Shown: in pieces, positions 12,001 to 42,599 of the stretch
How positions within the stretch are numbered: the stretch's first letter is position 1
How the letters are laid out: the number at the start of each line of letters is the position of its first letter
Source of the DNA: Arenicola marina
Taxonomy: Eukaryota > Annelida > Polychaeta > Arenicolidae
Assembly (NCBI GenBank): GCA_964019135.1
Contig: OZ025253.1
Coordinates: 441,501-505,500, forward strand
Length of the DNA stretch: 64,000 bases
Reading direction: 5' to 3'
Translations under genes and position numbers: made by a program
Notes under the pieces: model-generated
The model's input: the letters and a program-made list of their open reading frames with translations, nothing else
What the model was told of the DNA's origin: nothing
The model's database searches: none

Positions 12001-15000
12001 TAGTCGGACCTAGGACTAGAACCGCTTAATATAGCCGGACCTAGGATTGGGAAGCGCTTAATATAGCCGGACCTAGGATTAGGAACGGCGTAATATAGCC
12101 GGGCCTAGGATTAGGAACGGCTTAATATAGCCGGGCCTAGGAGTAGGAACGGCATAATATAGCCGGGCCTAGGACTAAGAACCGCCTAATATAGCCAGAC
12201 CTAGGATTAGGAACCGCTTAATATAGCCGGACCTAGGATTAGGAACAGCTTAATATAGCCGGACCTAGGATTAGGAACCGCTTAATATAGCCGGACCTAG
12301 GATTAGGAACGGCGTAATATAGCCGGACCTAGGATTAGGAACCGCTTAATATAGCCGGACCTAGGATTAGGAACCGCGTAATATAGCCGGGCCTAGGATT
12401 AGGAACCGCTTAATATAGCCGGGCCTAGGATTAGGAACCGCTTTATATAGTCGGACCTAGGACTAGAACCGCTTAATATAGCCGGACCTAGGATTGGGAA
12501 GCGCTTAATATAGCCGGACCTAGGATTAGGAACGGCGTAATATAGCCGGGCCTAGTATTAGGAACGGCGTAATATAGCCGGGCCTAGGAGTAGGAACGGC
12601 ATAATATAGCCGGGCCTAGGACTAGGAACCGCGTAATATAGCCGGACCTAGGATTAGGAACGGCGTAATATAGCCGGGCCTAGGATTAGGAACCGCTTAA
12701 TATAGCCGGACCTAGGATTAGGAACCGCGTAATATAGCCGGGCCTAGGATTAGGAACCGCTTAATATAGCCGGACCTAGGATTAGGAACCGCGTAATATA
12801 GCCGGGCCTAATACTAAGAACCGCCTAATATAGCCAGACCTAGGATTAGGAACCGCTTAATATAGCCGGACCTAGGATTAGGAACCGCGTAATATAGCCG
12901 GGCCTAGGATTAGGAACCGCTTAATATAGCCGGACCTAGGATTAGGAACCGCGTAATATAGCCGGGCCTAGGACTAAGAACCGCCTAATATAGCCAGACC
13001 TAGGATTAGGAACCGCGTAATATAGCCGGACCTAGGATTAGGAACCGCTTAATATAGCCGGACCTAGGATTAGGAACGGCGTAATATAGCCGGGCCTAGG
13101 ATTAGGAACCGCTTAATATAGCCGGACCTAGGATTAGGAACAGCGTAATATAGCCGGACCTAGGATTAGGAACCGCGTAATATAGCCGGACCTAGGATTA
13201 GGAACCGCTTAATATAGCCGGACCTAGGATTAGGAACCGCGTAATATAGCCGGGCCTAGGACTAAGAACCGCCTAATATAGCCAGACCTAGGATTAGGAA
13301 CCGCGTAATATAGCCGGACCTAGGATTAGGAACCGCTTAATATAGCCGGACCTATGATTAGGAACGACGTAATATAGCCGGACCTAGGACTAAGAACCGC
13401 TTAATATAGCCGGACCTAGGATTAGGAACCGCTGAATATAGCCGGACCTAGGATTAGGAACCGCGTAATATAGCCGGACCTAGGATTAGGAACCGCTTAA
13501 TATAGCCGGACCTAGGATTAGGAACCGCTTAATATAGCTGGGCCTAGGATTAGGAACGGCATAATATAGCCGGGCCTAGGACTAAGAACCGCCTAATATA
13601 GCCGGACCTAGGATTAGGAACCGCTTAATATAGCCGGACCTAGGATTAGGAACCGCTTAATATAGCCGGACCTAGGATTAGGAACCGCTTAATATAGACG
13701 GACCTAGGATTAGGAACCGCGTAATATAGCCGGGCCTAGGATTAGGAACCGCGTAATATATCCGGGCCTAGGATTAGGAACCGCTTAATATAGCCGGACC
13801 TAGGATTAGGAACCGCTTAATATAGCCGGACCTAGGATTAGGAACCGCTTAATATAGCCGGACCTAGGATTAGGAACCGCTTAATATAGCCGGTCCTAGG
13901 ATTAGGAACCGCTTAATATAGCCGGACCTAGGATTAGGAACCGCGTAATATAGCCGGAACTAGGATAAGGAACGGCGTAATATAGCCGGACCTAGGATTA
14001 GGAACGGCGTAATATAGCCGGGCCTAGGATTAGGAACGGCATAATATAGCCGGGCCTAGGATTATGAACCGCGTAATATAGCCGGACATAGGATTAGGAA
14101 CCGCTTAATATAGCCGGACCTAGGATTAGGAACCGCGTAATATAGCCGGACCTATGATAAGGAACGGCGTAATATAGCCGGACCTAGGATTAGGAACCGC
14201 GTAATATAGCCGGGCCTAGGATTAGGAACCGCTTAATATAGCCGGGCCTAGGATTAGGAACCGCTTAATATAGCCGGACCTAGGATTAGGAACGGCGTAA
14301 TATACCCGGACCTAGGATTAGGAACCGCTTAATATAGCCGGACCTAGGATTAGGAACCGCGTAATATAGCCGGGCCTAGGATTAGGAACCGCTTAATATA
14401 GCCTGGCCTAGGATTAGGAACCGCTTAATATAGCCGGACCTAGGATTAGGAACCGCTTAATATAGCCGGGCCTAGGATTAGGAACCGCTTAATATAGCCG
14501 GGCCTAGGATTAGGAACCGCTTAATATAGTCGGACCTAGGACTATAACCGCTTAATATAGCCGGACCTAGGATTGGGAAGCGCGTAATATAGCCGGACCT
14601 AGGATTAGGAACGGCGTAATATAGCCAGGCCTAGGATTAGGAACGGCGTAATAAAGCCGGGCCTAGGATTAGGAACGGCATAATATAGCCGGGCCTAGGA
14701 TTAGGAACGGCGTAATATAGCGGGCCTAGGATTAGGAACCGCGTAATATAGCCGGACCTAGGATTTGGAACCGCTTAATATAGCCGGACCTAGGATTAGG
14801 AACCGCGTAATATAGCCGGACCTAGGATTTGGAACCGCGTCATATAGCCGGACCTAGGATTAGAAACCGCTTAATATAGCCGGACCTAGGATTAGGAACC
14901 GCTTAATATAGCCGGGCCTAGGATTAGGAACCGCTTAATATAGCCGGACCTAGGATTAGGAACCGCTTAATATAGCCGGACCTAGGATTAGGAACCACGT

Positions 15001-17526
15001 GATATAGCCGGGCCTAGGATTAGGAACCGCTTAATATAGCCGGGCCTAGGATTAGGAACCGCTTAATATAGCCGGACCTAGGATTAGGAACGGCGTAATA
15101 TAGCCGGACCTAGGATTAGGAACCGCTTAATATAGCCGGACCTAGGATTAGGAACCGCGTAATATAGCGGGGCCTAGGATTAGGAACCGCTTAATATAGC
15201 CGGGTCTAGGATTAGGAACTGCTTAATATAGCCGGGCCTAGAATTAGGAACCGCTTAATATAGTCGGACCTAGGACTAGAACCGCTTAATATAGCCGGAC
15301 CTAGGATTGGGAAGCGCTTAATATAGCCGGACCTAGGATTAGGAACGGCGTAATATAGCCGGGCCTAGGATTAGGAACGGCGTAATATAGCCGGGCCTAG
15401 GAGTAGGAACGGCATAATATAGCCGGGCCTAGGACTAAGAACCGCCTAATATAGCCAGACCTAGGATTAGGAACCGCTTAATATAGCCGGACCTAGGATT
15501 AGGAACCGCTTAATATAGCCGGACCTAGGATTAGAAACCGCTTAATATAGCCGGACCTATAACTAGAACCGCTTAATATAGCCGGACCTAGGACTAGAAC
15601 CCCTTAATATAGCCGGACCTAGGATTGGGAAGCGCTTAATATAGCCGGACCTAGGATTGGGAAGCGCTTAATATAGCCGGACCTAGGATTAAGAACGGCG
15701 TAATATAGCCGGGCCTAGGATTAGGAACGGCGTAATAAAGCCGGGCCTAGGATTAGGAACGGCATAATATAGCCGGGCCTAGGATTAGGAACGGCGTGAT
15801 ATAGCCGGGCCTAGGATTAGGAACGGCGTAATATAGCCGTGCGAAGGATTAGGAACGGCATAACATAGACGGGCCTAGGATTAGGAACCGCGTAATATAG
15901 CCGGACCTAGGATTAGGAACCGCTTAATATAGCCGGACCTAGGATTAGGAACCGCGTAATATAGCCGGACCCAGGATTAGGAACCGCGTAATATAGCCAG
16001 GCCTAGGATTAGGAACGGCGTAATAAGGCCGGGCTAGGATTAGGAACGGCATAATATAGCCGGGCCTAGGATTAGGAACGGCGTAATATAGCCGGGCCTA
16101 GCATTAGGAACCGCGTAATATAGCCGGACCTAGGATTTGGAACCGCTTAATATAGCCGGACCTAGGATTAGGAACCGCGTAATATAGCCGGACCTAGGAT
16201 TTGGAACCGCGTCATATAGCCGGACCTAGGATTAGAAACCGCTTAATATAGCCGGACCTAGGATTAGGAACCGCTTAATATAGCCGGACCTAGGATTAGG
16301 AACCGCTTAATATAGCCGGACCTAGGATTAGGAACCACGTGATATAGCCGGGCCTAGGATTAGGAACCGCTTAATATAGCCGGGCCTAGGATTACGAACC
16401 GCTTAATATAGCCGGACCTAGGATTAGGAACGGCGCAATATAGCCGGGCCTAGGATTAGGAACGGCATAATATAGCCGGACCTAGGATTATGAACCGCTT
16501 AATATAGCCGGACCTAGGATTAGGAACCGCGTAATATAGCCGGACCTAGGATTAGGAACCGCTTACTATAGCCGGACCTAGGATTAGGAACCGCGTAATA
16601 TAGCCGGACCTAGGATTAGGAACCGCGTAATATAGCCGGGCCTAGGATTATGAACCGCTTAATATAGCCGGACCTAGGATTAGGAACCGCGTAATATAGC
16701 CGGACCTAGGATTAGGAACCGCTTAATATAGCCGGACCTAGGATTAGGAACCGCGTAATATAGCCGGGCCTAGGATTATGAACCGCTTAATATAGCCGGA
16801 CCTAGGATTAGGAACCGCGTAATATAGCCGGACCTAGGATTAGGAACCGCTTAATATAGCCGGACCTAGGATTAGGAACCGCGTAATATAGCCGGACCTA
16901 GGATTAGGAACCGCGTAATATAGCCGGACCTAGGATTAGGAACCGCGTAATATAGCTGGGCCTAGGATTAGGAACGGCATAATATAGCCGGGCCTAGGAT
17001 TAGGAACCGCTTAATATAGCCGGACCTAGGATTAGGAACGGCGTAATATAGCCGTGCTTAGGATTAGGAACCGCTTAATATAGCCGGACCTAGGATTAGG
17101 AACCGCGTAATATAGCCGGACCTAGGATTAGGAACCGCGTAATATAGCCGGGCCTAGGATTAGGAACCGCTTAATATAGCCGGACCTAGGATTAGGAACG
17201 GCGTAATATAGCCGGGCTTAGGATTAGGAACCGCTTAATATAGCCGGACCTAGGATTATGAACCGCTTAATATAGCCGGACCTAGGATTAGGAACCGCTT
17301 AATATAGCCGGACCTAGGATTAGGAACCGCTTAATATAGCCGGACCTAGGATTATGAACCGCTTAATATAGCCGGACCTAGGATTAGGAACCGCGTAATA
17401 TAGCCGGACCTAGGATTAGGAACCGCTTAATATAGCCGGACCTAGGATTAGGAACCGCGTAATATAGCCGGGCCTAGGATTAGGAACGCTAAATATAACA
17501 AGGCCTAGGATTATCAACCGCCTGAT
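1..17526. repeat. 32-bp satellite array, about 547 copies
   Basis: A 32-bp unit with the core CCTAGGATTAGGAACCGC followed by a TAATATAGCC segment is repeated without interruption from the first base. Common variant positions are GGACC/GGGCC, CCGCTT/CCGCGT/CGGCGT and GATTAGG/GAGTAGG/GACTAAG. One 31-bp variant (GGACTAGAACCGC) recurs. Higher-order repeats are visible: the sequence at base 1 returns at 704 (703 bp, 22 units including one 31-mer) and at 2784. A rare variant GTAGTAAAAAACC occurs at 1566, 3231, 8410 and 10426, the last two exactly 63 units apart (2016 bp). Copies from about 13.3 kb on are more mixed. Because the first visible coding exon of the gene looks internal, this array probably lies in an intron. 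Confidence 0.95.
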
Positions 17527-18716
17527 TATTATTATTATCTTTATTCGTATCGACCATTAAAGAAAACGATACACAGTAAAAAGCAGTTGACATAAAAAAT
17601 CATTCAAGACGTACAAATAAAACGCAGGATGCAATTCAATTCCTCAGCCGACATAAAATTATCATAACGGCAGGCGTCTCTCTCTTTCAGAATAGTTTGT
17701 GCAAAAGCACCAAAAGCTTTATCTTGATGGGTAAGCGATTCGTTAAGACGCTCAGTGCATAAACGTTTAAAAAATAGACCCTTTGCACTATTACAAACGT
17801 CGTCTATCTGCATTTTTTTCTTTCCTAAAATGTGTCTTAAGCTTGAAGATAGGGGAGTGCAAGTACCATTTGTAGCGATCTTGACTAGAAATTTGACTAA
17901 TTGATGGTCACTAGTATATGCGACATTTACGAATTTTAACATACGGTATGAAATTTGATCTTCAATGGTCAGACATTGCGCTATTAATGGGAGTAACCTG
18001 CCGTGCGTACATGCTGGCGATTTTAAAACCTTTCTAATGCATACTCTCCAGGAGGTGATAAATTTACTTACATCCTTGTGCTGCAGGTCCCATAGACAAC
18101 ATCCTTAAAACGAAGTACAATATGAATTAAAAAGCGTATATAACGACTCAATACATCGCATGTGCCATAATTGGCTAAAACGTAATTAGTGCGGCGGATC
18201 ATGTCATATGATGCCTTCCTAAAAACGTCACTCGAGGCGTTAGGTCCTATTAAATGGCCTAGGTGTATACCACTACGTACAACATCTACCGGAACATCGT
18301 TGAAATTAAAGCATACATCTTCATTTTTGCTAAAATTAATCAGCTTGCACTTCGACGGGTTAAACTCGAGACAGAAATCCTTTGCAGATTTATTACAAAT
18401 ATTGCACATCATTTTCAAGGCATGTAAATTGGGAGCCAAAAGGCTAACGTCATCTACGTAAGTAAAAGCTCCACAAAATAAATGGCCAACCATGCAGCCG
18501 TATCCTGACGTTTTAAGACGTAAAAGCAGCTCATCTATATATATACCAAATAAAATCGGGGATAAAACTGTTTAACGCCGTTGCAAGTGGAGAAGTATGC
18601 AGAACGCTCGTCGTTCCAGTTGACATTAAGCTCCTGTTTAGTGTACATATAGAGACGACATTTGATATACAATGGATGCACCCCCTCTTTGGAGCAGTAA
18701 ATGAAATAGCTTATGT
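17527..18716 (-). mobile_element. 5'-truncated LINE inserted in the 32-bp array
   Basis: About 1.2 kb of non-satellite sequence splits the satellite. On the minus strand it reads as the 3' part of a non-LTR retrotransposon: a reverse-transcriptase segment, then the long C-terminal region, then a 3' tail ending in AATAAAG and ATAATAAT repeats at 17527-17545. The 5' end is lost. The left flank ends ACCGCCTGAT and the right flank resumes with GTAATCGGGCC, so the target was a 32-bp unit of the type that fills 18.7-19.8 kb. The clade is not assigned; CR1/L2/Jockey-like is a guess from the C-terminal style. Confidence 0.85.
17604..18700 (-). pseudogene. LINE reverse transcriptase / C-terminal remnant
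   Basis: The fragment around 18068-18493 carries the RT catalytic box AFTYVDDVSLLAP followed by the usual ALKMMCNICNKSAKDFCLEF and FNPSKCKLINFS stretches. Just upstream, in another frame, VLSPILFGIYIDELL is readable, which is the RT block before the YVDD box. The segment at 17604-17942 is the downstream C-terminal region (LKFVNVAYTSDHQLVKFL). The pieces lie in different frames, so the ORF has at least two frameshifts and is dead. It has no relation to the host gene and lies antisense to it. Confidence 0.8.
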
Positions 18717-19775
18717 AATCGGGCCTCGGATTAGGAACCGCCTAATATAGCTGGCCCTAGGATTAGGAACCGCCTGATGTAACCAGGCCTAGAATTAGGA
18801 ACCGCCTGATGTAACCAGGCCTAGGATTAGGAACCGCCTGATGTAACCAGGCCTAGGATTAGGAACCGCCTGATGTAACCAGGCCTAGGATTAGGAACCG
18901 CCTGATGTAACCAGGCCTAGGATTAGGAACCGCCTGATGTAACCAGGCCTAGGATTAGGAACCGCCTGATGTAACCAGGCCTAGGATTAGGAACCGCCTG
19001 ATGTAACCAGGCCTAGGATTAGGAACCGCCTGATGTAACCAGGCCTAGGATTAGGAACCGCCTGATGTAACCAGGCCTAGGATTAGGAACCGCCTGATGT
19101 AACCAGGCCTAGGATTAGGAACCGCCTGATGTAACCAGGCCTAGGATTAGGAACCGCCTGATGTAACCAGGCCTAGGATTGGGAACCGCCTGATGTAACC
19201 AGGCCTAGGATTAGGAACCGCCTGATGTAACCAGGCCTAGGATTGGGAACCGCCTGATGTAACCAGGCCTAGGATTAGGAACCGCCTGATGTAACCAGGC
19301 CTAGGATTGGGAACCGCCTGATGTAACCAGGCCTAGGATTAGGAACCGCCTGATGTAACCAGGCCTAGGATTGGGAACCGCCTGATGTAACCAGGCCTAG
19401 GATTAGGAACCGCCTGATGTAACCAGGCCTAGGATTGGGAACCGCCTGATGTAACCAGGCCTAGGATTAGGAACCGCCTGATGTAACCAGGCCTAGGATT
19501 GGGAACCGCCTGATGTAACCAGGCCTAGGATTAGGAACCGCCTGATGTAACCAGGCCTAGGATTGGGAACCGCCTGATGTAACCAGGCCTAGGATTAGGA
19601 ACCGCCTGATGTAACCAGGCCTAGGATTAGGAACCGCCTGATGTAACCAGGCCTAGGATTAGGAACCGCCTGATGTAACCAGGCCTAGGATTGGGAACCG
19701 CCTGATGTAACCAGGCCTAGGATTAGGAACCGCCTGATGTAACCAGGCCTAGGATTAGGAACCGCCTGATGTAAT
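18717..19775. repeat. Homogeneous 32-bp sub-array (GATGTAACCAGG variant)
   Basis: About 33 copies of a 32-bp unit related to the left satellite but with GATGTAACCAGG in place of TAATATAGCCGG. Copies are nearly identical. Units are all GATTAGG from about 18.8 to 19.15 kb. Then GATTGGG and GATTAGG alternate regularly to about 19.57 kb, giving a 64-bp dimer. The first two units (18717-18780) are intermediate between the two families. The homogeneity suggests more recent expansion than the left array. Confidence 0.93.
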
Positions 19776-19858: not shown

Positions 19859-20056
19859 CTGTACTTCGGTATGTTAGGTTTGTGGTTTTCGTTTCGAAGG
19901 TGCAGCGTTGTTCGGTTATGTCGGACTTTATATCGGGTAAGCAGTCAGACGCCAACAGCAACGACTCGATGGGAGAGCTAGGCAGCCACAGCGACGACTC
20001 GGCCTCCAACAGCGCCACGGACAACGGCGAGAAGATGTCCTTCTCTGAGCACCTCT
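19859..20056 (+). CDS. PHC: Polyhomeotic-like gene, exon A (acidic Ser-rich segment)
   Basis: First visible coding exon. The proposed start follows a strong 3' splice site (T-rich tract ending ATTTAG at 19853-19858), and the frame is open from there. If this were instead a first exon, the ATG at 19918 would serve. The segment reads GKQSDANSNDSMGELGSHS and onward, rich in Ser, Asp and Asn, and ends GEKMSFSEHL. It ends in phase 1 at CTCT followed by GTAAGT. The first T of the split codon is completed by CG at the start of the next exon, so the phases agree. I do not recognise this stretch as a named domain; in PHC proteins the region before the FCS finger is poorly conserved. The intron that follows is mostly a minisatellite starting at the donor itself. 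Confidence 0.7.
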
Positions 20057-21345
20057 GTAAGTAGGACAGCCGGGGCTGTGAGTCTGTGAGTAGGACAGCC
20101 GGGGCTGTGAGTCTGTGAGTAGGACAGCCGGGGCTGTGAGTCTGTGAGTAGAACAGCCGGGGCTGTGAGTCTGTGAGTAGGACAGCCGGGGCTGTGAGTC
20201 TGTAAGTAGGACAGCCGGGGCTGTGAGTCTGTGAGTAGGAAAGCCGGGGCTGTGAGTCTGTGAGTAGGAAAGTCGGGGCTGTGAGTCTGTGAGTAGGACA
20301 GCCGGGGCTGTGAGTCCGTGAGTAGGACAGCCGGGGCTGTGAGTCTGTGAGTAGGAAAGCCGGGGCTGTGAGTCTGTGAGTAGGAAAACCGGGGCTGTGA
20401 GTCTGTGAATAGGACAGCCGGGGCTGTGAGTCTGTAAGTAGGACAGCCGGGGCTGTGATTCTGTGAGTAGGACAGCCGGGGCTGTGAGTCTGTGAGTAGG
20501 ACAGCCGGGGCTGTGAGTCTGTGAGTAGGACAGCCGGGGTTGTGAGTGTGTGAGTAGGAAAGCCGGGGCTGTGAGTCTGTAAGTAGGACAGCCGGGGCTG
20601 TGAGTCTGTAAGTAGGAAAGCCGGGGCTGTGAGTCTGTGAGTAGGAAAGCCGGGGCTGTGAGTCTGTGAGTAGGACAGCCGGGGCTGTGAGTCTGTAAGT
20701 AGGACAGCCGGGGCTGTGAGTCTGTGAGTAGGACAGCCGGGGCTGTGAGTCTGTGAGTAGGACAGCCGGGGCTGTGAGTCTGTGAGTAGGACAGCCGGGG
20801 CTGTGAGTCTGTGAGTAGAACAGCCGGGGCTGTGAGTCTGTGAGTAGGACAGCCGGGGCTGTGAGTCTGTGAGTAGGACAGCCGGGGCTGTGAGTCTGTG
20901 AGTAGGACAGCCGGGGCTGTGAGTCTGTGAGTAGGACAGCCGGGGCTGTGAGTCTGTGAGTAGGACAGCCGGGGCTGTGAGTCTGTGAGTAGGACAGCCG
21001 GGGCTGTGAGTGTGTGAGTAGGAAAGCCGGGGCTGTGAGTCTGTAAGTAGGACAGCCGGGGCTGTGAGTCTGTAAGTAGGACAGCCGGGGCTGTGAGTCT
21101 GTGAGTAGGACAGCCGGGGCTGTTAGTCTGTAAGTAGGACAGCCGGGGCTGCGAATCTGTAAGTAGGACAGCCGGGGCTGTGAGTCTGTGAGTAGGACAG
21201 CCGGGGCTGTGAGTCTGTATGTAGGACAGCCGGGGCTGTGAGTCTGTAAGTAGGACAGCCGGGGCTTTGAGTCTGTAAGTATGACAGCCGGGGCTGTGAG
21301 TCTGTAAGTATGACAGTCGGGACTGTGAGTCTGTAAGTAGGACAG
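20057..21345. repeat. 29-bp minisatellite seeded on the exon A donor site
   Basis: About 44 tandem copies of a 29-bp unit, GTGAGTAGGACAGCCGGGG then CTGTGAGTCT. The array begins at the 5' splice site of exon A. Exon end TCT plus GTAAGTAGG at 20054-20065 is identical to the TCT-GTAAGTAGG joint found inside about a dozen units; most others have TCT-GTGAGTAGG. Each unit therefore holds a near-consensus donor. Reading past the true donor meets TAG at once, so use of later donors would truncate the protein. Long antisense ORFs here are by-products of a stop-free repeat. Confidence 0.95.
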
Positions 21346-21659
21346 CCTGTTGGTTGAGCAAGGGCATCTAGGAATATGTGCAAACTTGTTCCTGTAAGTG
21401 AGTACTGCTGGATGTTTGTTGTGAACATCCAGTTTTACCACTGTAATGCCGTTAATCCCCAATCAAATTAAGTGTACATGAGCGAAAGCTTCTATAAACC
21501 GTTATATCTTGACCTGATATAAGCTGTCACACTGGACCTATAAGTGGAGGATACATCAACCCTCGAACCACGTTTTTCTTACTGGTGGCTAGATCTTTGC
21601 ACAGGGTTAGAAAGTATTCAATTCATTCCTGTATGACCTCTTTTTGCTTGCTTTTGAAG
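21346..21659 (+). other. Unique 3' end of intron 1 with a short hairpin
   Basis: Non-repetitive intron tail between the 29-bp array and the FCS exon. It contains a perfect 9-bp inverted repeat, CTGGATGTT at 21408-21416 and AACATCCAG at 21424-21432. It ends with a T-rich tract and the acceptor TTTTGAAG at 21652-21659. No coding potential seen. Confidence 0.6.
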
Positions 21660-21955
21660 CGTCGATGGACCTTCCCAAACTCAAGTGCGAGTTTTGCGGC
21701 AAGATGGCGTTTGCCAAGCATTTCCGGCGGTCCAAGCGGTTTTGCTCGACCGCCTGCGCCAAGCGCTACAACGTGGGTTGTTCGCGCCGCATGGGCCTCT
21801 TCCAGCGCACCAAGAGGGTCAAGGCCGTGGTGGTGGCGGGCGTCATCAAGAAGCGGGTGTGTGGCGGCGGCCTCAGCCACATGGCCCTCAAGAAGGGGTG
21901 GAAGCGGGGCCAGGAGGGCCGCGTGTCCACGGGGCCCATTCAGAGGAGTCCAGAG
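21660..21955 (+). CDS. PHC: Polyhomeotic-like gene, exon B (FCS zinc finger)
   Basis: Encodes about 98 residues beginning SMDLPKLKCEFCG. The FCS-type zinc finger is complete: CEFCG, then KRFCSTACAKRYNVGC, giving the Cys-x2-Cys and Cys-x3-Cys ligand pairs of the PHC/SFMBT/L3MBTL group. In Polyhomeotic proteins this finger binds nucleic acid and lies upstream of the SAM domain in the Polycomb repressive complex 1 subunit. A basic tail (RRMGLFQRTKRVKAVVVAG) follows, as in PHC relatives. The acceptor is TTTTGAAG (phase 1) and the donor is GAG/GTGAGA (phase 0). A 22-bp minisatellite starts about ten bases after the donor. Recognition of the finger is secure; orthology to one vertebrate PHC paralogue is not claimed. 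Confidence 0.92.
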
Positions 21956-21965
21956 GTGAGACCTA

Positions 21966-22291
21966 CTCAGACTGCGAGGCGTGGTCCGTCAGACTGCCAG
22001 GCGTGGTCCGTCAGACTGCCAGGCGTGGTCCGTCAGACTGCCAGGCGTGGTCCGTCAGACTGCCAGGCGTGGTCCGTCAGACTGCCAGGCGTGGTCCGTC
22101 AGACTGCTAGGCGTGGTCCGTCAGACTGCGAGGCATGGTCCGTCAGACTGCGAGGCGTGGTCCGTCAGACTGCGAGGCGTGGTCCGTCAGACTGCGAGGC
22201 ATGGTCCGTCAGACTGCGAGGCGTGGTGCGTCAGACTGCGAGGCATGGTTCGTCAGACTGCGAGGCGTGGTCCGTCAGACTGCGAGGCGTG
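21966..22291. repeat. 22-bp minisatellite in intron 2
   Basis: About 15 copies of a 22-bp unit containing GGCGTGGTCCGTCAGACTGC followed by CAG or GAG. Early copies have CCAG and later copies CGAG, so variants are segregated by position. The array starts about ten bases past the exon B donor. A 60-bp non-repetitive stretch (22292-22354) separates it from the next array. Confidence 0.93.
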
Positions 22292-22354
22292 GTCAAAAGC
22301 CTTCAAAGCTATTTTCGGTGTATCAAGAAAACTTTCTATCATTGTTCGGTGCCC

Positions 22355-23150
22355 GTGATCTCGATTGTCGGGTGACTGGGGCTCAGTGCCCGTGAGCTCG
22401 GTTATCGGGTGACTGGGGCTCAGTGCCCGTGAGCTCGGTTATCGGGTGACTGGGGCTCAGTGCCCGTGAGCTCGGTTATCGGGTGACTGGGGCTCAGTGC
22501 CCGTGAGTTTGGTTATCGGGTGACTGGGGCTCAGTGCCCGTGAGCTCGGTTATCCGGTGACTGGGGCTCAGTGTCCATGAGCTCGGTTATCGGGTGACTG
22601 GGGCTCAGTGCCCGTGAGCTCGGTTATCGAGTGACTGGGGCTCAGTGCCCGTGAGTTTGGTTATCGGGTGACTGGGGCTCAGTGTCCGTGAGCTCGGTTA
22701 TCGGGTGACTGGGGCTCAGTGCCCGTGAGCTCGGTTATCGGGTGACTGGGGCTCAGTGCCCGTGAGCTCGGTTATCGGGTGACTGGGGCTCAGTGCCCGT
22801 GAGTTTGGTTATCGGGTGACTGGGGCTCAGTGCCCGTGAGCTCGGTTATCCGGTGACTGGGGCTCAGTGTCCATGAGCTCGGTTATCGGGTGACTGGGGC
22901 TCAGTGCCCGTGAGCTCGGTTATCGAGTGACTGGGGCTCAGTGCCCGTGAGTTTGGTTATCGGGTGACTGGGGCTCAGTGTCCGTGAGCTCGGTTATCGG
23001 GTGACTGGGGCTCAGTGCCCGTGAGCTCGGTTATCGGGTGACTGGGGCTCAGTGCCCGTGAGCTCGGTTATCGGGTGACTGGGGCTCAGTGTCCGTGAGC
23101 TCGGTTATCGGGTGACTGGGGCTCAGTGCCCGTGAGCTCGGTTATCGGGA
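22355..23150. repeat. 37-bp minisatellite in intron 2 with 296-bp higher-order repeat
   Basis: About 21 copies of a 37-bp unit, GTGACTGGGGCTCAGTGCCC then GTGAGCTCGGTTATCGG. Variant units (TCCATGAGC, GAGTTTGG, TATCCGG, TATCGAG) recur in the same order; for example GTGTCCATGA occurs at 22571 and 22867. This defines a 296-bp block of 8 units that has been duplicated. Each unit has a donor-like CC-GTGAGC. Confidence 0.93.
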
Positions 23151-23331
23151 GGCTGGTGCCCATGAGTTCGGTATGTCGTTGTGATGCTGTTACAGCGATG
23201 TCATCGTTACATTATTACATTAACGATGACGATGTCATCGATTAAGGATGGCATTAATATGGTGGCTTGATATCGCCAACAGCTCGCCTACAATATGTGA
23301 GAAGTGAATGTTGTTCCGCTTCATCCTGCAG
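23151..23331 (+). other. Unique 3' end of intron 2 with hairpin
   Basis: Short non-repetitive tail before exon C. It contains a perfect 10-bp inverted repeat, GTCATCGTTA at 23200-23209 and TAACGATGAC at 23221-23230, around an 11-base loop. The acceptor is TTCATCCTGCAG ending at 23331. Confidence 0.6.
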
Positions 23332-23631
23332 ACCTCTGTCCTGGCGGCCGTGACTGGCTCGCCCGGCCGGCGGGGTGGTGAGGAGCTGGGTGAAGCCGAG
23401 GAGACCGGGCCCCTGGGCGGCCTGCCCATGCCGTCGGGAGACCCCAGCGCCCCCAGCGGGGAGACCACCACCACCCCTACCACCAGCAGCGACTCGGAGC
23501 GCAGCTCCTCGCCCAGCGGCCAGGAGGAGAGCTCACCACCTCGCTCACCGCCCGAGCTGGAGCGGGTGGAGATGGACACGGACCCCACCCCCACCGCCCC
23601 TACCCCCCGCAGACCTCTGCAGCAGTGGTCG
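23332..23631 (+). CDS. PHC: Polyhomeotic-like gene, exon C (Ser/Pro/Glu-rich linker)
   Basis: Exactly 100 codons, phase 0 at both ends. It reads TSVLAAVTGSPGRRGGEE, then a Thr/Ser run (GETTTTPTTSSDSERSSS), then PPRSPPELERVEMDTDPT and APTPRRPLQQWS. It ends on the Trp-Ser that opens the SAM domain; the next exon supplies VQEVYDFI, recreating the WSVxxVxxFI start seen in PHC SAM domains. In PHC proteins the FCS-SAM linker is disordered and variable, consistent with this composition. The last 51 bases of the exon, including the donor TCG/GTAAGC, are the first copy of a 72-bp tandem repeat that then fills the start of intron 3. The first two repeat donors (23632 and 23704) would both give in-frame proteins. 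Confidence 0.88.
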
Positions 23632-25460
23632 GTAAGCGCCAGACTGGTTGTAGACCCCACCCCCACCGCCCCTACCCCTCGCAGACCACTGCAGCAGTGG
23701 TCGGTAAGCGCCAGACTGGTTGTAGACCCCACCCCCACCGTCCCTACTCCTCGCAGACCCCTGTAGCAGTGGTCGGTAAGCGCCAGACTGGTTGTAGACC
23801 CCACCCCCACCGCCCCTACCCCTCGCAGACCACTGCAGCAGTGGTCGGTAAGCGCCAGACTGGTTGTAGACCCCACCCCCACCGCCCCTACCCCTCGCAG
23901 ACCACTGCAGCAGTGGTCGGTAAGCGCCAGACTGGTTGTAGACCCCACCCCCACCGCCCCTACCCCTCGCAGACCACTGCAGCAGTGGTCGGTAAGCGCC
24001 AGACTGGTTGTAGACCCCACCCCCACCGCCCCTACCCCTCGCAGACCACTGCAGCAGTGGTCGGTAAGCGCCAGACTGGTTGTAGACCCCACCCCCACCG
24101 TCCCTACCCCTCGCAGACCACTGCAGCAGTGGTCGGTAAGCGCCAGACTGGTTGTAGACCCCACCCCCACCGCCCCTACCCCTCGCAGACCACTGCAGCA
24201 GTGCTCGGTAAGCGCCAGACTGGTTGTAGACCCCACCCCCACCGTCCCTACCCCTCGCAGACCACTGCAGCAGTGGTCGGTAAGCGCCAGACTGGTTGTA
24301 GACCCCACCCCCACCGCACCTACCCCTCGCAGACCGCTGCAGCAGTGGTCGCTAAGCGCCAGACTGGTTGTAGACCCCACCCCCACCGCCCCTACCCCTC
24401 GCAGACCCCTGTAGCAGTGGTCGGTAAGCGCCAGACTGGTTGTAGACCCCACCCCCACCGTCCCTACCCCTCGCAGACCACTGCAGCAGTGGTCGGTAAG
24501 CGCCAGACTGGTTGTAGACCCCACCCCCACCGTCCCTACCCCTCGCAGACCACTGCAGCAGTGGTCGGTAAGCGCCAGACTGGTTGTAGACCCCACCCCC
24601 ACCGTCCCTACCCCTCGCAGACCACTGCAGCAGTGATCGGTAAGCGCCAGACTGGTTGTAGACCCCACCCCCACCGCCCCTACCCCTCGCAGACCACTGC
24701 AGCAGTGGTCGGTAAGCGCCAGACTGGTTGTAGACCCCACCCCAACCGCCCCTACCCCTCGCAGACCACTGCAGCAGTGGTCGGTAAGCGCCAGACTGGT
24801 TGTAGACCCCACCCCCACCGCCCCTACCCCTCGCAGACCACTGCAGCAGTGGTCGGTAAGCGCCAGACTGGTTGTAGACCCCACCCCCACCGTCCCTACC
24901 CCTCGCAGACCACTGCAGCAGTGGTCGGTAGGCGCCAGACTGGTTGTAGACCCCACCCCCACCGTCCCTACCCCTCGCAGACCACTGCAGCAGTGGTCGG
25001 TAAGCGCCAGACTGGTTGTAGACCCCACCCCCACCGTCCCTACCCCTCGCAGACCACTGCAGCAGTGGTCGGTAAGCGCCAGACTGGTTGTAGACCCCAC
25101 CCCCACCGCCCCTACCCCTCGCAGACCACTGCAGCAGTGGTCGGTAAGCGCCAGACTGGTTGTAGACCTCACCCCCACCGCCCCTACCCCTCGCAGACCC
25201 CTGTAGAAGGGGTCGGTAAGCGCCAGACTGGTTGTAGACCCCACCCCCACCGTCCCTACCCCTCGCAGACCACTGCAGCAGTGGTCGGTAAGCGCCAGAC
25301 TGGTTGTAGACCCCACCCCCACCGTCCCTACCCCTCGCAGACCTCTGCAGCAGTGGTCGGTAAGCGCCAGACTGGTTGTAGACCCCACCCCCACCGTCCC
25401 TACCCCTCGCAGACCTCTGCAGCAGTGGTCGGTAAGCGCCAGACTGGTTGTAGACCCCAC
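23581..25460. repeat. 72-bp minisatellite spanning the exon C/intron 3 boundary
   Basis: About 26 copies of a 72-bp unit (24 codons). Each copy has a C-rich tract ending CTACCCCTCGCAG (acceptor-like), then ACCACTGCAGCAGTGGTCG (exon end), then GTAAGCGCCAGACTGGTTG (donor and intron start). The first copy is the real end of exon C, with CTCTGCAG where most others have CACTGCAG. Because the unit is a multiple of three and has few stops, long ORFs run through it on both strands; these are not genes. A few copies have CCCCTGTAG, which puts a stop in the coding frame, the first at 23764. Confidence 0.96.
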
Positions 25461-25540
25461 CGAACCCACGCGCGTCGCGCGGAACCTGCATTCTGTTGTA
25501 ATCTAATAGAATATTAGTACAATAGTATAGAACTGACGAC

Positions 25541-28500
25541 GATAGCCCATTGTCTGTTGACGGTCCTCACACAAGTACTTACACGTGATAGCCCATTGTC
25601 TGTTGGCGGTCCTCACACAAGTACTTACACGTCATAGCCCATTGTCTGTTGGCGGTCCTCACACAAGTACTCACACGTCATAGCCCATTGTCTGTTGACG
25701 GTCCTCACACAAGTACTTACACGTAATAGCCCATTGTCTGTTGGCGGTCCTCACACAAGTACTTACACGTCATAGCCCATTGTCTGTTGGCGGTCCTCAC
25801 ACAAGTACTTACACGTCATAGCCCATTGTCTGTTGACGGTCCTCACACAAGTACTTACACGTGATAGCCCATTGTCTGTTGACGGTCCTCACACAAGTAC
25901 TCACACGTCATAGCCCATTGTCTGTTGGCGGTCCTCACACAAGTACTTACACGTGATAGCCCATTGTCTGTTGACGGTCCTCACACAAGTACTTACACGT
26001 GATAGCCCATTGTCTGTTGGCGGTCCTCACACAAGTACTTACACGTGATAGCCCATTGTCTGTTGGCGGTCCTCACACAAGTACTTACACGTGATAGCCC
26101 ATTGTCTGTTAGCGGTCCTCACACAAGTACTTACACGTGATAGCCCATTGTCTGTTGACGGTCCTCACACAAGTACTTACACGTGATAGCCCATTGTCTG
26201 CTGGCGGTCCTCACACAAGTACTTACACGTGATAGCCTAGTGTCTGTTGACGGTCCTCACACAAGTACTTACACGTCATAGCCCATTGTCTGTTGGCGGT
26301 CCTCACACAAGTACTTACACGTGATAGCCTAGTGTCTGTTGACGGTCCTCACACAAGTACTTACACGTCATAGCCCATTGTCTGTTGGCGGTCCTCACAC
26401 AAGTACTTACACGTCATAGCCCATTGTCTGTTGGCGGTCCTCACACAAGTACTCACACGTGATAGCCCATTGTCTGTTGACGGTCCTCACACAAGTACTT
26501 ACACGTCATAGCCCATTGTCTGTTGGCGGTCCTCACACAAGTACTTACACGTGATAGCCTAGTGTCAGTTGACGGTCCTCACACAAGTACTTACGCGTCA
26601 TAGCCCATTGTCTGTTGGCGGTCCTCACACAAGTATTCACACGTGATAGCCCATTGTCTGCTAGCGGTCCTCTTCAAGTACTCACACGTCATAGCCCATT
26701 GTCTGTTAGCGGTCCTCACACAAGTACTCACACGTGATAGCCCATTGTCTGTTGACGGTCCTCACACAAGTACTCACACGTGATAGCCCATTGTCTGTTA
26801 GCGGTCCTCACACAAGTACTCACACGTCATAGCCCATTGTCTGTTGACGGTCCTCACACAAGTACTCACACGTGATAGCCCATTATCTGTTGGCGGTCCT
26901 CACACAAGTACTCACACGTGATAGCCCATTGTCTGTTAGCGGTCCTCACACAAGTACTTACACGTCATAGCCCATTGTCTGTTGGCGGTCCTCACACAAG
27001 TACTCACACGTGATAGCCCATTGTCTGTTGACGGTCCTCACACAAGTACTCACACGTCATAACCCATTGTCTGTTGACGGTCCTCACACAAGTACTTACA
27101 CGTGATAGCCCATTGTCTGTTGGCGGTCCTCACACAAGTACTTACACGTGATAGCCCATTGTCTGTTGACGGTCCTCACACAAGTACTCACACGTCATAG
27201 CCCATTGTCTGTTGACGGTCCTCACACAAGTACTCACACGTCATAGCCCATTGTCTGTTGGCGGTCCTCACACAAGTACTTACACGTGATAGCCCATTGT
27301 CTGTTGAGGGTCCTCACACAAGTACTTACACGTCATAGCCCATTGTCTGTTGGCGGTCCTCACACAAGTACTTACACGTGATAGCCCATTGTCTGTTGAC
27401 GGTCCTCACACAATACTTACACGTGATAGCCCATTGTCTGTTGGCGGTCCTCACACAAGTACTTACACGTCATAGCCCATTGTCTGTTGGCGGTCCTCAC
27501 ACAAGTACTCACACGTCATAGCCCATTGTCTGTTGACGGTCCTCGCACAAGTACTCACACGTGATAGCCCATTGTCTGTTAGCGGTCCTCACACAAGTAC
27601 TCACACGTCATAGCCCATTGTCTGTTGACGGTCCTCACACAAGTACTCACACGTGATAGCCCATTGTCTGTTGGCGGTCCTCACACAAGTACTCACACGT
27701 GATAGCCCATTGTCTGTTAGCGGTGCTCACACAAGTACTCACACGTCATGGCCCATTGTCTGTTAGCGGTCCTCACACAAGTACTTACACGTGATAGCCT
27801 AGTGTCTGTTGACGGTCCTCACACAAGTACTTACACGTGATAGCCTAGTGTCTGTTGACGGTCCTCACACAAGTACTTACACGTGATAGCCCATTGTCTG
27901 TTGGCGGTCCTCACACAAGTACTTACACGTGATAGCCCATTGTCTGTTAGCGGTCCTCACACAAGTACTTACACGTGACAGCCCATTGTCTGTTGGCGGT
28001 CCTCACACAAGTACTTACACGTGATAGCCCATTGTCTGTTAGCGGTCCTCACACAAGTACTTACACGTGATAGCCCATTGTCTGTTGGCGGTCCTCACAC
28101 AAGTACTTACACGTCATAGCCCATTGTCTGTTAGCGGTCCTCACACAAGTACTTACACGTCATAGCCCATTGTCTGTTAGCGCTCCTCACACAAGTACTC
28201 ACACGTGATAGCCTAGTGTCTGTTAGCGGTCCTCACCCAAGTACTCACACGTGATAGCCCATTGTTTGTTGGCGGTCCTCACACAAGTACTTACACGTGA
28301 TAGCCTAGTGTCTGTTGACGGTCCTTACACAAGTACTTACACGTGATAGTCTAGTGTCTGTTGGCGGTCCTCACCCAAGTACTCACACGTCATAGCCCAT
28401 TGTCTGTTGACGGTCCTCACACAAGTACTTACACGTGATAGCCCATTGTTTGTTGGCGGTCCTCACACAAGTACTTACACGTGATACCTTAGTGTCTGTT

Positions 28501-29754
28501 AGCGGTTCTCACACAAGTACTTACACATGACAGTCTAGTGTCTGTTAGCGGTCCTCACCCAAGTACTCACACGTGATAGCCCATTGTTTGTTGGCGGTCC
28601 TCACACAAGTACTTACACATGACAGTCTAGTGTCTGTTAGCGGTCCTCACACAAGTACTTACACGTGATAGCCTAGTGTCTGTTAGCGGGCCTCACACAA
28701 GTACTTACACATGACAGTCTAGTGTCTGTTAGCGGTCCTCGCACAAGTACTTACACGTGATAGCCTAGTGTCTGTTAGCGGTCCTCACACAAGTACTTAC
28801 ACGTGATAGCCTAGTGTCTGTTAGCGGTCCTCACACAAGTACTTACACGTGATAGTCTAGTGTCTGTTAGCGGTCCTTACACAAGTACTTACACATGATA
28901 GCCTAGTGTCTGTTGGCGGTCCCCACACAAGTACTTACACATGACAATCTAGTGTCTGTTAGCGGTCCTCGCACAAGTACTTACACGTGATAGCCTAGTG
29001 TCTGTTAGCGGTCCTCACACAAGTACTTACACGTGATAGCCTAGTGTCTGTTAGCGGTCCTCACACAAGTACTTACACGTGATAGCCTAATGTCTGTTGG
29101 CGGTCCTTACACAAGTACTTACATGTGATAGCCTAGTGTCTGTTGGCGGTCCTTACACAAGTACTTACACGTGATAGTCTAGTGTCTGTTAGCGGTCCTC
29201 ACCCAAGTACTCACACGTGATAGCCTAATGTCTGTTGGCGGTCCTCACACAAGTACTCACACGTGATAGCCTAGTGTCTGTTAGCGGGCCTCACACAACT
29301 ACTCACACGTGACAGTCTAGTGTCTGTTGGCGGTCTTCACACAACTACTTACACGTGGCAGTCGAGTGTGTGTTAGCGGTCCTCACACAAGTACTGACAC
29401 GTGATAGCCTAGTGTCTGTTAGCGGGCCTCACACAAGTACTTACACGTGATAGCCCATTGTCTGTTGGCGGTCCTCACACAAGTACTTACGCGTGATAGC
29501 CTAGTGTCTGTTGACGGTCCTCACACAAGTACTTACACGTGATAGTCTAGTGTCTGTTAGCGGTCCTTACACAAGTACTTACACGTGAAAGTCTAGTGTC
29601 AGTTAGCAGTCCTCACACAAGTACTTACACGTGATAGCCTAGTGTCTGTTGGCGGTCCCTACACAAGTACTCACACGTGATAGTCTAGTGTCTGTTAGCG
29701 GTCCTTAAACAAATACTCACACGTGATAGTCTAGTGTCTGTTAGCGGTCCTCAC
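25541..29754. repeat. 46-bp minisatellite in intron 3, about 91 copies
   Basis: Unit GATAGCCCATTGTCTGTTGG, CGGTCCTCACACAAGTACTT, ACACGT. Positions after ACACGT alternate between GAT and CAT, so units carry either the E-box CACGTG or the ATF/CRE-like ACGTCA. Variants are polarised: the left part has GCCCATTG, while from about 28.5 kb GCCTAGTG and TCTAGTG dominate. It shares its core TGTCTGTTGGCGGTCC with the 43-bp array to its right, so the two are related. Bases 25461-25540 are a short unique spacer. Confidence 0.95.
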
Positions 29755-31508
29755 AAGAGTCCTGACTGGCTGCCTTCTGTCTGTTGACGGTCCTCACACG
29801 AGTCCTGACTGGCTGCCTTCTGTCTGTTGGCGGTCCTCACACGAGTCCTGACTGGCTGCCTTCTGTCTGTTGGCGGTCCTCACACGAGTCCTGACTGGCT
29901 GCCTTCCGTCTGTTGGCGGTCCTCACACGAGTTCTGACTGGCTGCCTTCTGTCCGTTGGCGGTCCTCACACGAGTCCTGACTGGCTGCCTTCTGTCTGTT
30001 AGCGGTCCTCACACGAGTCCTGACTGGCTGCCTTCTGTCTGTTGGCGGTCCTCACACGAGTCCTGACTGGCTGCCTTCTGTCTGTTGGCGGTCCTCACAC
30101 GAGTCCTGACTGGCTGCCTTCTGTCTGTTGACGGTCCTCACACGAGTCCTGACTGGCTGCCTTCTGTCTGTTGACGGTCCTCACACGAGTCCTGACTGGC
30201 TGCCTTCTGTCCGTTGGCGGTCCTCACACGAGTCCTGACTGGCTGCCTTCTGTCTGTTAGCGGTCCTCACACGAGTCCTGACTGGCTGCCTTCTGTCTGT
30301 TGGCGGTCCTCACACGAGTCCTGACTGGCTGCCTTCTGTCTGTTGGCGGTCCTCACACGACTCCTGACTGGCTGCCTTCTGTCTGTTGACGGTCCTCACA
30401 CGAGTCCTGACTGGCTGCCTTTGTATGTTGGCGGTTCTCACACGAGTCCTGACTGGCTGCCTTCTGTCTGTTGACGGTCCTCACACGAGTCCTGACTGGC
30501 TGCCTTCTGGCCGTTGGCGGTCCTCACACGACTCCTGACTGGCTGCCTTCTGTCTGTTGACGGTCCTCACACGAGTCCTGACTGGCTGCCTTCTGTCCGT
30601 TGGCGGTCCTCACACGAGTGCTGACTGGCGGCCTTCTGTCTGTTAGCGGTCCTCACACGAGTCCTGACTGGCTGCCTTCTGTCCGTTGGCGGTCCTCACA
30701 CGAGCCCTGACTGGCTGCCTTTGTCTGTTGGCGGTCCGCACACGAGTCCTGACTGGCTGCCTTCTGTCTGTTAGCGGTCCTCACACGAGTCCTGACTGGC
30801 TGCCTTCTGTCTGTTGACGGTCCTCACACGAGTCCTGACTGGCTGCCTTTGTCTGTTGGCGGTCCTCACACGAGTCCTGACTGGCTGCCTTTGTCTGTTG
30901 GCGGTCCTCACACGAGTCCTGACTGGCTTGCTTTTGTCTGTTGGCGGTCCTCACACGAGTCCTGACTGGCTGCCTTCTGTCAGTTGGCGGTCCTCACACG
31001 AGTCTTGACTGGCTGCCTTCTGTCTGTTGACGGTCCTCACACGAGTCCTGACTGGCTGCCTTCTGTCTGTTGGCAGTCCTCACACGAGTCCTGACTGGCT
31101 GCCTTCTGTCTGTTAGCGGTCCTCACACGAGTCCTGACTGGCTGCCTTCTGTCTGTTGGCGGTCCTCACACGAGTCCTGACTGGCTGCCTTCTGTCTGTT
31201 GGCGGTCCTCACACGACTCCTGACTGGCTGCCTTCTGTCTGTTGACGGTCCTCACACGAGTGCTGACTGGCTGCCTTCTGTCCGTTGGCGGTCCTCACAC
31301 GAGTGCTGACTGGCTGCCTTCTGTCCGTTGGCGGTCCTCACACGAGTCCTGACTGGCTGCCTTCTGTCTGTTAGCGGTCCTCACACGAGTCCTGACTGGC
31401 TGCCTTCTGTCTGTTGGCGGTCCTCACACGAGCCCTGACTGGCTGCCTTTGTCTGTTGGCGGTCCGCACACGAGTCCTGACTGGCTGCCTTTTGTCTGTT
31501 GCAGGTCC
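29755..31508. repeat. 43-bp minisatellite copying the last 3' splice site
   Basis: About 40 copies of a 43-bp unit, CCTGACTGGCTGCCTTCTGT then CTGTTGGCGGTCCTCACACG, AGT. The final copy is the genuine acceptor: CCTGACTGGCTGCCTTTTGT, CTGTTGCAG, then exon bases GTCC at 31505-31508. Units thus repeat a branch-point-like CTGAC, the pyrimidine tract and the first four bases of exon D. Most have TTGGCGG or TTGACGG where the true site has TTGCAGG. Some have TTAGCGG, which is a shifted AG, and one (near 31071) has GGCAG. Confidence 0.95.
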
Positions 31509-31696
31509 AGGAGGTGTACGACTTCATCAACCACCTGCCAGGATGCGCTATGTACGCCGAGGAGTTTAACCGACAGGAGATCGACGGTCAGGCCCTCATG
31601 TTACTGAAGGAAGACCACCTGATGACCACCATGAGCATCAAACTTGGACCTGCACTCAAGATTTGCGCCAAAATCAACACCCTCAAAGATGACTAG
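31505..31696 (+). CDS. PHC: Polyhomeotic-like gene, exon D (C-terminal SAM domain)
   Basis: Last coding exon, 63 codons and a TAG stop at 31694-31696. It reads VQEVYDFINHLPGC, then EIDGQALMLLKEDHL, then IKLGPALKI and ends INTLKDD. With the WS supplied by exon C this is a complete SAM domain of the Polyhomeotic class, close in spacing and motifs to PHC1-3 and Drosophila Ph. The Ph SAM forms head-to-tail polymers that cluster PRC1 on chromatin; the EIDG and KLGPALKI motifs of the family fold are present. The acceptor is CTGTTGCAG. The stop lies a few residues after the last SAM helix, the usual C-terminus for PHC proteins. Confidence 0.95.
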   Translation, partial: VQEVYDFINHLPGCAMYAEEFNRQEIDGQALMLLKEDHLMTTMSIKLGPALKICAKINTLKDD

Positions 31697-32003
31697 AAGA
31701 CGCTCGCCCTCTGCCTGACAAGTGACGAGCCGTCTGGGTCCACTCTGGGTTGGGGCTGGGCGTGAGGGGCGCAGGTCATTGCCCCGCCCTCTCCCCTACC
31801 CACCAACACACACACAATCTCGCTCTTTACCGTCATGTATTCACTCGGTTGACCCAGCAAGGACTGCCCCTCATATGTGTCCGTACTCGAAATTTATCAA
31901 TTTAATTTCAATGCCGCTGATGTAGTATGATCAAAAGTTGAAGATCCGTCTTTAAAATGGCTGCTAACATGTCGGTGTTACGATTCGTTTTAAAACTGGT
32001 TCC

Positions 32004-33535
32004 CTGATGTAGTGTGATCACATTCTAAGAATAATTCGTAAACTGGTTCCCTGATGTAGTGTGATCACATGCTAAGAATAATTCGTAAACTGGTTCCCTG
32101 ATGTAGTGTGATCACATGCTAAGAATGCTTCATAAACTGGTTCCCTGATGTAGTGTGATCACATTCTAAGAATAATTCGTAAACCTTTTCCCTGATGTAG
32201 TGTGATCACATGCTAAGAATAATTCGTAAAACTGGTTCCCTGATGTAGTGTGATCACATTCTAAGAATAATTCGTAAACTGGTTCCCTGATGTAGTGTGA
32301 TCACATTCTAAGAATAATTCGTAAACTGGTTCCCTGATGTAGTGTGATCACATTCTAAGAATAATTCGTAAACCTTTTCCCTGATGTAGTGTGATCACAT
32401 GCTAAGAATAATTCGTAAACTGGTTCCCTGATGTAGTGTGATCACATTCTAAGAATAATTCGTAAACTGGTTCCTTGATGTAGTGTGATCACATTCTAAA
32501 AATAATTCGTAAACTGGTTCCCTGATGTAGTGTGATCACATTCTAAGAATAATTCGTAAACCTTTTCCCTGATGTAGTGTGATCACATTCTAAGAATAAT
32601 TCGTAAACTGGTTCCCTGATGTAGTGTGATCACATTCTAAGAATAATTCGTAAACTGGTTCCCTGATGTAGTGTGATCACATTCTAAGAATAATTCGTAA
32701 ACTGGTTCCCTGATGTAGTGTGATCACATGCTAAGAATGCTTCGTAAAACTGGTTCCCTGATGTAGTGTGATCACATTCTAAGAATAATTCGTAAACTGG
32801 TTCCCTGATGTAGTGTGATCACATGCTAAGAATAATTCGTAAACTGGTTCCCTGATGTAGTGTGATCACATGCTAAGAATGCTTCATAAACTGGTTCCCT
32901 GATGTAGTGTGATCACATTCTAAGAATAATTCGTAAACCTTTTCCCTGATGTAGTGTGATCACATGCTAAGAATAATTCGTAAAACTGGTTCCCTGATGT
33001 AGTGTGATCACATTCTAAGAATAATTCGTAAACTGGTTCCCTGATGTAGTGTGATCACATTCTAAGAATAATTCGTAAACTGGTTCCCTGATGTAGTGTG
33101 ATCACATTCTAAGAATAATTCGTAAACCTTTTCCCTGATGTAGTGTGATCACATGCTAAGAATAATTCGTAAACTGGTTCCCTGATGTAGTGTGATCACA
33201 TTCTAAGAATAATTCGTAAACTGGTTCCTTGATGTAGTGTGATCACATTCTAAAAATAATTCGTAAACTGGTTCCCTGATGTAGTGTGATCACATTCTAA
33301 GAATAATTCGTAAACCGTTTCCCTGATGTAGTGTGATCACATTCTAAGAATAATTCGTAAACTGGTTCCCTGATGTAGTGTGATCACATTCTAAGAATAA
33401 TTCGTAAACTGGTTCCCTGATGTAGTGTGATTACATGCTAAGAATAATTCCTAAACTGGTTCCCTGATGTAGTGTGATCACATGCTAAGAATGCTTCGTA
33501 AAACTGGTTCCCTGATGTAGTGTGATCACATGTTC
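32004..33535. repeat. 47-bp tandem array in the 3' UTR, about 32 copies
   Basis: Unit CTGATGTAGTGTGATCACAT, then TCTAAGAATAATTCGTAAAC, then TGGTTCC. Each unit has the perfect palindrome TGTGATCACA. A degenerate copy (CTGATGTAGTATGATC) precedes the array at about 31917. Variant order repeats: TGCTTCATAAACTGG appears at about 32126 and again 754 bp later, so the second half is a duplicate of the first. Confidence 0.93.
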
Positions 33536-33699
33536 GAACGGATTTATAAACATGTTTCTCTGTACGTGGCATGATAATGTTTTGAAATTACTTCATGGAC
33601 CTGTGTTTTGGTATTATAGTGTACTCACATGTTAAAGATCCTTCATAAAAAGCTTCATCGTAAGTTAAGGATTCTTTATTATGATGTACTCTGAAATAG

Positions 33700-33935
33700 C
33701 TTTACTTGTTCAGTCTGTGTTGGCCTTGGGTTTACTAGTTCAGTCTGTGCTTGCCAAGGCTTACTTGTTCAGTCTGTGCTTGCCAAGGCTTTACTTGTTC
33801 AGTCTGTGCTTGCCAAGGCTTTACTTGTTCAGTCTGTGCTTGCCAAGGCTTTACTTGTTCAGTCTGTGCTTGCCAAGGCTTTACTTGTTCAGTCTGTGCT
33901 TGCCAAGGCTTTACTTGTTCAGTCTGTGCTTGCTT
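33700..33935. repeat. 30-bp tandem array in the 3' UTR, about 8 copies
   Basis: Unit TTTACTTGTTCAGTCTGTGC then TTGCCAAGGC, with the first two copies diverged. Its length is a multiple of three, so short repetitive ORFs appear on the + strand; they are not supported as coding. Confidence 0.9.
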
Positions 33936-37163: not shown

Positions 37164-37179
37164 CAGGTCGAAGACGACC

Positions 37180-42584: not shown

Positions 42585-42599
42585 TCCCCCCTTCCCCCA

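Follow-up and report, generated by a model that had tools for sequence, protein, structure and literature searches.

Why should the introns of a single gene be occupied by minisatellites that begin or end at its own splice junctions, and is the duplication of DNA that gives rise to such arrays favoured at splice sites? The question is raised by a gene in a 64,000-nucleotide stretch of the Arenicola marina assembly (contig OZ025253.1, positions 441,501 to 505,500; hereafter the window, to whose numbering the positions given for this gene refer), which a preliminary description of the letters had assigned to the Polycomb group. Four exons, all on the plus strand, were rebuilt from reading frame and homology: exon A, whose coding part runs from an in-frame ATG at 19918 (19918-20056) and joins exon B in phase 1; exon B, which encodes an FCS-type zinc finger (21660-21955); exon C, which encodes a linker and ends within a SAM domain at W-S (23332-23631); and exon D, which carries the SAM domain and the stop codon (31505-31696). 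The phases of the four exons are compatible and the joined protein has 308 residues. Among solved structures, those of Polyhomeotic proteins come nearest to its SAM domain, and an alignment of eight proteins puts the boundary between exons C and D within the domain's conserved W-(S/T/N)-(V/I). With its FCS zinc finger and SAM domain, the protein is a Polyhomeotic homologue (PHC), in keeping with the Polycomb assignment.

Tandem Repeats Finder (TRF) reports five minisatellite arrays in the three PHC introns, all on the plus strand, and reproduces the coordinates and units of the preliminary description. After exon C, a 72-bp array of 26 copies (23581-25461) repeats 51 bp of exon C together with the donor GTAAGC and 21 intronic bases; the donor GT is retained in 25 of the 26 units. 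After exon A, a 29-bp array of about 45 copies (20054-21347) starts three bases before the donor and repeats 3 bp of exon A, the donor and intron sequence, with the GT retained in 45 of 45 units. Ahead of exon D lies an array of about 130 copies whose 46-bp unit turns into a 43-bp form (25541-31508); the two repeats share a common core throughout and form a single array. TRF places it at 25541-31475, and a last partial copy, which aligns over the exon D acceptor for four exonic bases, extends it to 31508. Its units contain the pyrimidine tract and GTCC and no working acceptor: 113 of the ~130 copies could be matched to the acceptor context, and of these a single one, the real acceptor, has an AG. 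Asked of each array, the defining question of the amphioxus "mirages", whether the repeated unit spans an exon-intron boundary, receives graded answers. The 51-bp overlap of the 72-bp unit with exon C is solid. The 29-bp unit does include the donor, with an exonic part of just 3 bp (TCT), an overlap that is weak on its own. The 43-bp unit includes the pyrimidine tract and the first 4 bp of exon D, and lacks the AG in its other matched copies. The picture of introns filled by junction-born arrays does not extend to intron B, where a 22-bp array of about 15 copies begins at the twelfth intron base past exon B (21967-22294), a 37-bp array of about 22 copies follows (22349-23156), and neither touches a junction.

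The two donor arrays appear to be of local origin. Throughout the 867-Mb genome, the 72-bp unit has 26 matches, all inside the PHC 72-bp array, and a trimer of the 29-bp unit has 21, all inside the PHC 29-bp array. Since this search passes over very common words, a private origin of the two units is strongly hinted rather than proven; having no matches elsewhere, both arrays were probably born in place, and the local birth proposed earlier is borne out in that the units were found only at the PHC locus and the exon end of this very gene makes up part of the 72-bp unit. The boundary copies may also retain traces of a seed. In the 72-bp array, the copy that includes the end of the exon departs from the bulk at two columns, at the first of which the last two copies have the exon's T. 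In the 29-bp array, at the column that distinguishes GTAAGT from GTGAGT, the last 11 copies include 9 with the A of the first copy, and the 33 copies in the middle include 5. This pattern fits internal expansion of the arrays from a local seed, as described for the globin mirages of amphioxus. Introner-like elements with splice sites are known, and insertion of a satellite or a mobile element at the splice sites might be invoked; we reject this, since the 72- and 29-bp units, far from being present at many loci as a dispersed satellite or introner would be, were found only in PHC, and the exonic part of the 72-bp unit comes from the coding sequence of PHC itself. Nor are the arrays at all likely to be coding repeats within the protein. 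The 72-bp unit does correspond to 24 codons, and the frame of exon C stays open as far as the third copy, but that copy contains an in-frame stop, and the periods of 29 and 43/46 bp, like those of 8 of the 10 donor arrays in the sample described below, are not multiples of three.

Could three such arrays in one gene have arisen by chance? In a uniform-birth model, in which each array is a duplication that starts anywhere in the intron stripped of its extra copies, 1.29 of the five PHC arrays are predicted to span a junction, and the probability of at least 3 is 0.088; the acceptor array was counted as spanning by hand, as TRF alone ends short of the junction. PHC by itself therefore does not prove non-random births, and the earlier view that three arrays at junctions were unlikely to be chance is not upheld for this gene. 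The result is a point in favour of a simple alternative, in which births occur at random along genes and selection clears the exonic ones while tolerating those in introns or at junctions. Where introns are short and units measure 20-90 bp, junction-spanning arrays would then be frequent even without a hot spot, and 1.3 of 5 are already predicted here.

A wider sample was taken from kinesin, myosin, dynein and CCT genes, whose exons were located by family search of the same genome; eight chromodomain loci were left out. The rows used were 128 of 133 for kinesins (five with in-frame TAG or TAA on small contigs were dropped), 76 of 77 for myosins, 71 of 94 for dyneins (mainly exon-fragment copies were dropped) and 9 of 49 for CCT. 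Kinesins and myosins gave 71 adjacent exon pairs, 68 of them with splice sites (two had none and one was without sequence); 58 introns were kept, after eight were dropped for a length mismatch of more than 2 residues and two as second partners. Of 47 dynein pairs 30 were resolved and 29 kept, while 17 were left out, which makes this subset biased to short introns. Five of six CCT pairs were resolved; five entered the near-copy test and four the donor-strength comparison. The splice-site matrices were generic, the splice finder favours strong donors by design, and an array was called junction-spanning when it crossed the junction by at least 3 bp.

Arrays are present in 18 of the 58 kinesin/myosin introns and account for 13,548 of the 48,515 intronic bases sampled; ten introns have a junction-spanning array, eight at the donor and two at the acceptor. 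Eight of 23 arrays thus span a donor where uniform births predict 2.0, an excess of about fourfold that random births do not readily explain (probability of at least 8, 0.00045). In a conditional model the expectation is 2.2 with uniform births and 3.3 with births weighted by GC content, and the donor effect given GC has p=0.008. Array starts 0-45 bp past the donor are likewise over-represented (p=0.023; p=0.0008 when the dyneins are pooled), and in the pooled set 10 of 38 arrays are donor-spanning against 3.9 expected uniformly and 4.8 with GC weighting (p=0.015 given GC). No acceptor excess was found among the kinesin/myosin arrays (2 versus 2.2 expected). The proposal that splice sites as such are amplified, and the comparison of arrays with junctions that went with it, run here on the sampled introns, therefore come out divided: kinesin/myosin donors exceed expectation, and acceptors and dyneins match random placement.

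A second test makes no use of splice annotation. At loci of known gene strand, a strong donor was sought in each array unit in the sense and antisense orientations. In 92 arrays, a set that includes dynein loci (one of them, L060, chosen because of its exon-fragment copies), 22 units contain a strong sense donor and 4 an antisense one, and at a stricter cut the ratio is 15:0; in the non-array DNA of the same loci it is 109:92. By a rough reckoning by hand, from the modelled rate plus chance matches, random births would lead to about 12 sense-donor units in the 92. When the test is restricted to the twenty 10-kb kinesin/myosin loci, 18 of which have such arrays, the ratio is 14:2 in 68 arrays, whereas across 200 dinucleotide shuffles the sense donors average 3.6 and never exceed 10. 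Acceptors show no significant strand bias in this test (6:2), and an acceptor hot spot was seen neither here nor in the kinesin/myosin count. A third approach, independent of TRF, asks whether 30-base windows recur as near copies within their own intron. For kinesins and myosins the counts are 8/58 at the donor, 12/52 at +60, 10/52 at +120 and 7/52 in mid-intron, falling to 4/52 at 120 and 3/52 at 60 bases before the acceptor and 3/58 at the acceptor itself. In this sample, births gather on the 5' side of introns and extend into the exon end. Donors crossed by an array also score higher than the rest, with 9.79 at the 10 spanned donors and 7.26 at 81 others (p=0.0003).

We consider that these arrays are mirage minisatellites formed by in-place duplication of splice junctions, with a tandem-duplication hot spot at the donor end of introns, and we give this reading a probability of roughly 0.55. 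Short stretches around a gene's own splice junctions would be tandemly duplicated in place and then enlarged by ordinary minisatellite turnover. When a donor is duplicated, the first copy would stay where it was, and the second copy, together with a piece of exon, would land inside the intron. Growth would do no harm if splicing uses the outermost copy of the junction, since every additional copy is then intronic. In the kinesin/myosin sample such births are common, and they cluster around the donor, from the last tens of exonic bases to ~50-100 bp into the intron. Strong donors are enriched at arrays and may favour birth itself; alternatively, only a strong first donor, favoured because it is transcribed before its copies, may be reliably chosen. 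Acceptor arrays would be harder to tolerate, as the last copy must win despite earlier AGs. The use of the first donor and a mutational cause of the donor excess are what we infer from these patterns; births at the donor end might owe something to repair coupled to transcription, to R-loops on G-rich sense strands or to base composition.

Several results weigh against this reading. At the second differing column of the 72-bp array, the exon's C is found in no copy. The donor and acceptor counts do not differ significantly from each other (8:2, p=0.11; 10:3 with dyneins, p=0.09). In the dynein subset, with its 29 introns, 15 arrays and bias to short introns, two arrays span a donor and one an acceptor, against 1.7 expected for each. 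The 34 dynein and CCT introns have no gradient of near copies from donor to acceptor (2/34, 3/29, 4/29, 4/29, 2/29, 4/29 and 1/34). Random births accommodate these dynein and CCT results, as well as the acceptor counts; given the kinesin/myosin donors and the sense-donor units, we nevertheless regard them, at these sample sizes, as the less likely explanation. The junction was also tried and rejected as the peak of coverage, since near copies number 8/58 at kinesin/myosin donors and 12/52 at +60. The higher scores of spanned donors come from a generic matrix and a finder that prefers strong donors. Finally, GC content affects births (p=0.0026) and explains part of the donor effect.

This last point is the core of another alternative, in which minisatellite births prefer GC- or G-rich DNA, and exon ends and strong donors form islands of high GC against the AT-richer remainder of introns. 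In its favour, the units of the ten donor arrays have a GC content of 0.61, compared with 0.43 in the remainder of their introns, and the spanned donors (10 of 91) are richer than the others in GC (0.62 versus 0.52, p=0.0015) and in G (p=0.002); there is no significant difference between the two groups in G-skew (p=0.13) or in array-free intron length. However, the donor effect persists after GC is accounted for, and the exon on the acceptor side is as GC-rich as that on the donor side (0.563 versus 0.558) without showing an excess. Composition is thus an improbable sole cause. A broader form of the hot-spot reading can be put forward tentatively: the donor end, where donors are strong and G-rich, may be a general mutational hot spot tied to transcription or early splice-site recognition, with mirages arising independently in distant phyla and lengthening introns where repair lets duplications grow.

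The presence of donor and acceptor arrays in one gene, which had seemed peculiar to PHC, is not unique. A kinesin gene of the same genome (locus L014) has, by eye, a donor array whose 52-bp unit contains the coding end VDRVFTAESTQQE and its donor and, ahead of another exon, an array with a unit of ~23 bp that repeats the acceptor TTACAG/GTGTTC; the exon with this acceptor array is followed by a 92-bp donor array, whose splice sites were resolved by script. The acceptor arrays in L014 and in a further locus, L019, retain the AG. Repeats at both the 5' and the 3' splice sites are also described for lancelet PGBD5 in passages of PMC3902484. In L014, at 1758-3302, a donor array is followed directly by an array with a 317-bp period made of apparent copies of the next exon (VFDEVQALAVSCVNGF), in the first copy of which the acceptor reads CAT instead of CAG.

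Junction-spanning minisatellites in amphioxus, which the preliminary description had mentioned, are documented: passages of PMC3087553 and PMC3902484 describe mirages as minisatellite-like tandem copies of an exon-intron boundary, on the donor or the acceptor side, in Adh3, the globins BflGb6 and BflGb9, troponin C and PGBD5, with cluster boundaries that escape homogenisation. Unit lengths in the passages of PMC3087553 are 10-72 bp in Adh3 and 150-160 bp in the globins, a range that includes the PHC units of 29, 72 and 46/43 bp. The arrays described here are likewise tandem copies of an exon-intron boundary, but they belong to an annelid, run to tens or more than 100 copies over kilobases, and affect 10 of 58 sampled introns, with a donor bias there. 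The cephalochordate range of known mirages does not cover this genome, whose COX1 (from a mitochondrial contig with in-frame TGA, read with table 5) is nearest to annelids: its best match is Pilargis wolfi, at 91%, and polychaetes lead the list. The mitochondrial gene order, with genes named by their reading frames, is nad3-nad2-cox1-cox2, which is typical of annelids. COX1 and gene order speak against amphioxus as the source, and the COX1 matches point to an annelid, probably of Phyllodocida. As the source is an annelid, the likeness to amphioxus mirages is one across phyla.

We know of no report of splice-junction minisatellites in annelids. None was found in the open literature as represented by titles, the starts of abstracts, and passages of PMC3087553, PMC3902484, PMC2206037 and PMC12783039. 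The nearest annelid case is earthworm metallothionein, which has long minisatellites in intron 1 and, in one clone, duplications of the fourth exon; the passages of PMC12783039 do not state that the intron units contain a splice junction. Intron gain by tandem duplication of exonic DNA containing AG/GT, an idea of Rogers cited in passages of PMC3087553 and represented by a potato case (PMC4974935), also involves duplicated DNA that carries splice signals; in the annelid, by contrast, the introns pre-exist and the arrays lengthen them. To judge from the amphioxus passages, mirages have so far been a curiosity of a few lancelet genes, and a frequent, donor-biased annelid set makes births at splice sites statistically testable within one assembly. 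Such arrays offer a route for the lengthening of introns and the seeding of new splice sites, and they are a warning to gene annotation, as one intron may hold tens of similar donors.

Other repeats occur around PHC. About 300 bp and 2 kb past its stop codon lie two minisatellites at no known junction, with units of 47 bp (31993-33531) and 30 bp (33699-33933), and at 37177-37292 an 18-bp array of ACCCTAGATCGAGGGTTA is nearly palindromic and has telomere-like words inside. Upstream, two 32-bp arrays with related units (2-17521, a length of 17.5 kb, and 18713-19774) flank a reverse-transcriptase fragment on the minus strand (RVT_1 in 18068-18571). Also on the minus strand, 43655-47524 contains retroelement open frames with reverse transcriptase, RNase H and integrase zinc-binding domains, beside a sub-threshold match to an integrase core at 42575-43654.

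Among the genes sampled, dynein heavy-chain genes at G000:C1:2967129-2967821, C4:2513719-2514355 and C1:13759095-13759957 have tandem copies of exon fragments of 22-28 residues, spaced ~80-95 bp apart. Small contigs C390, C504 and C536 have kinesin frames that read through TAG and TAA, and are possibly contaminants with a ciliate-like code. In a muscle-type myosin gene (G000:C4:367768-384767), two head exons (profile positions ~110-154 and 590-640) are each present in four copies. Mutually exclusive exons are a feature of protostome Mhc genes, and these duplicated head exons are perhaps of that kind.

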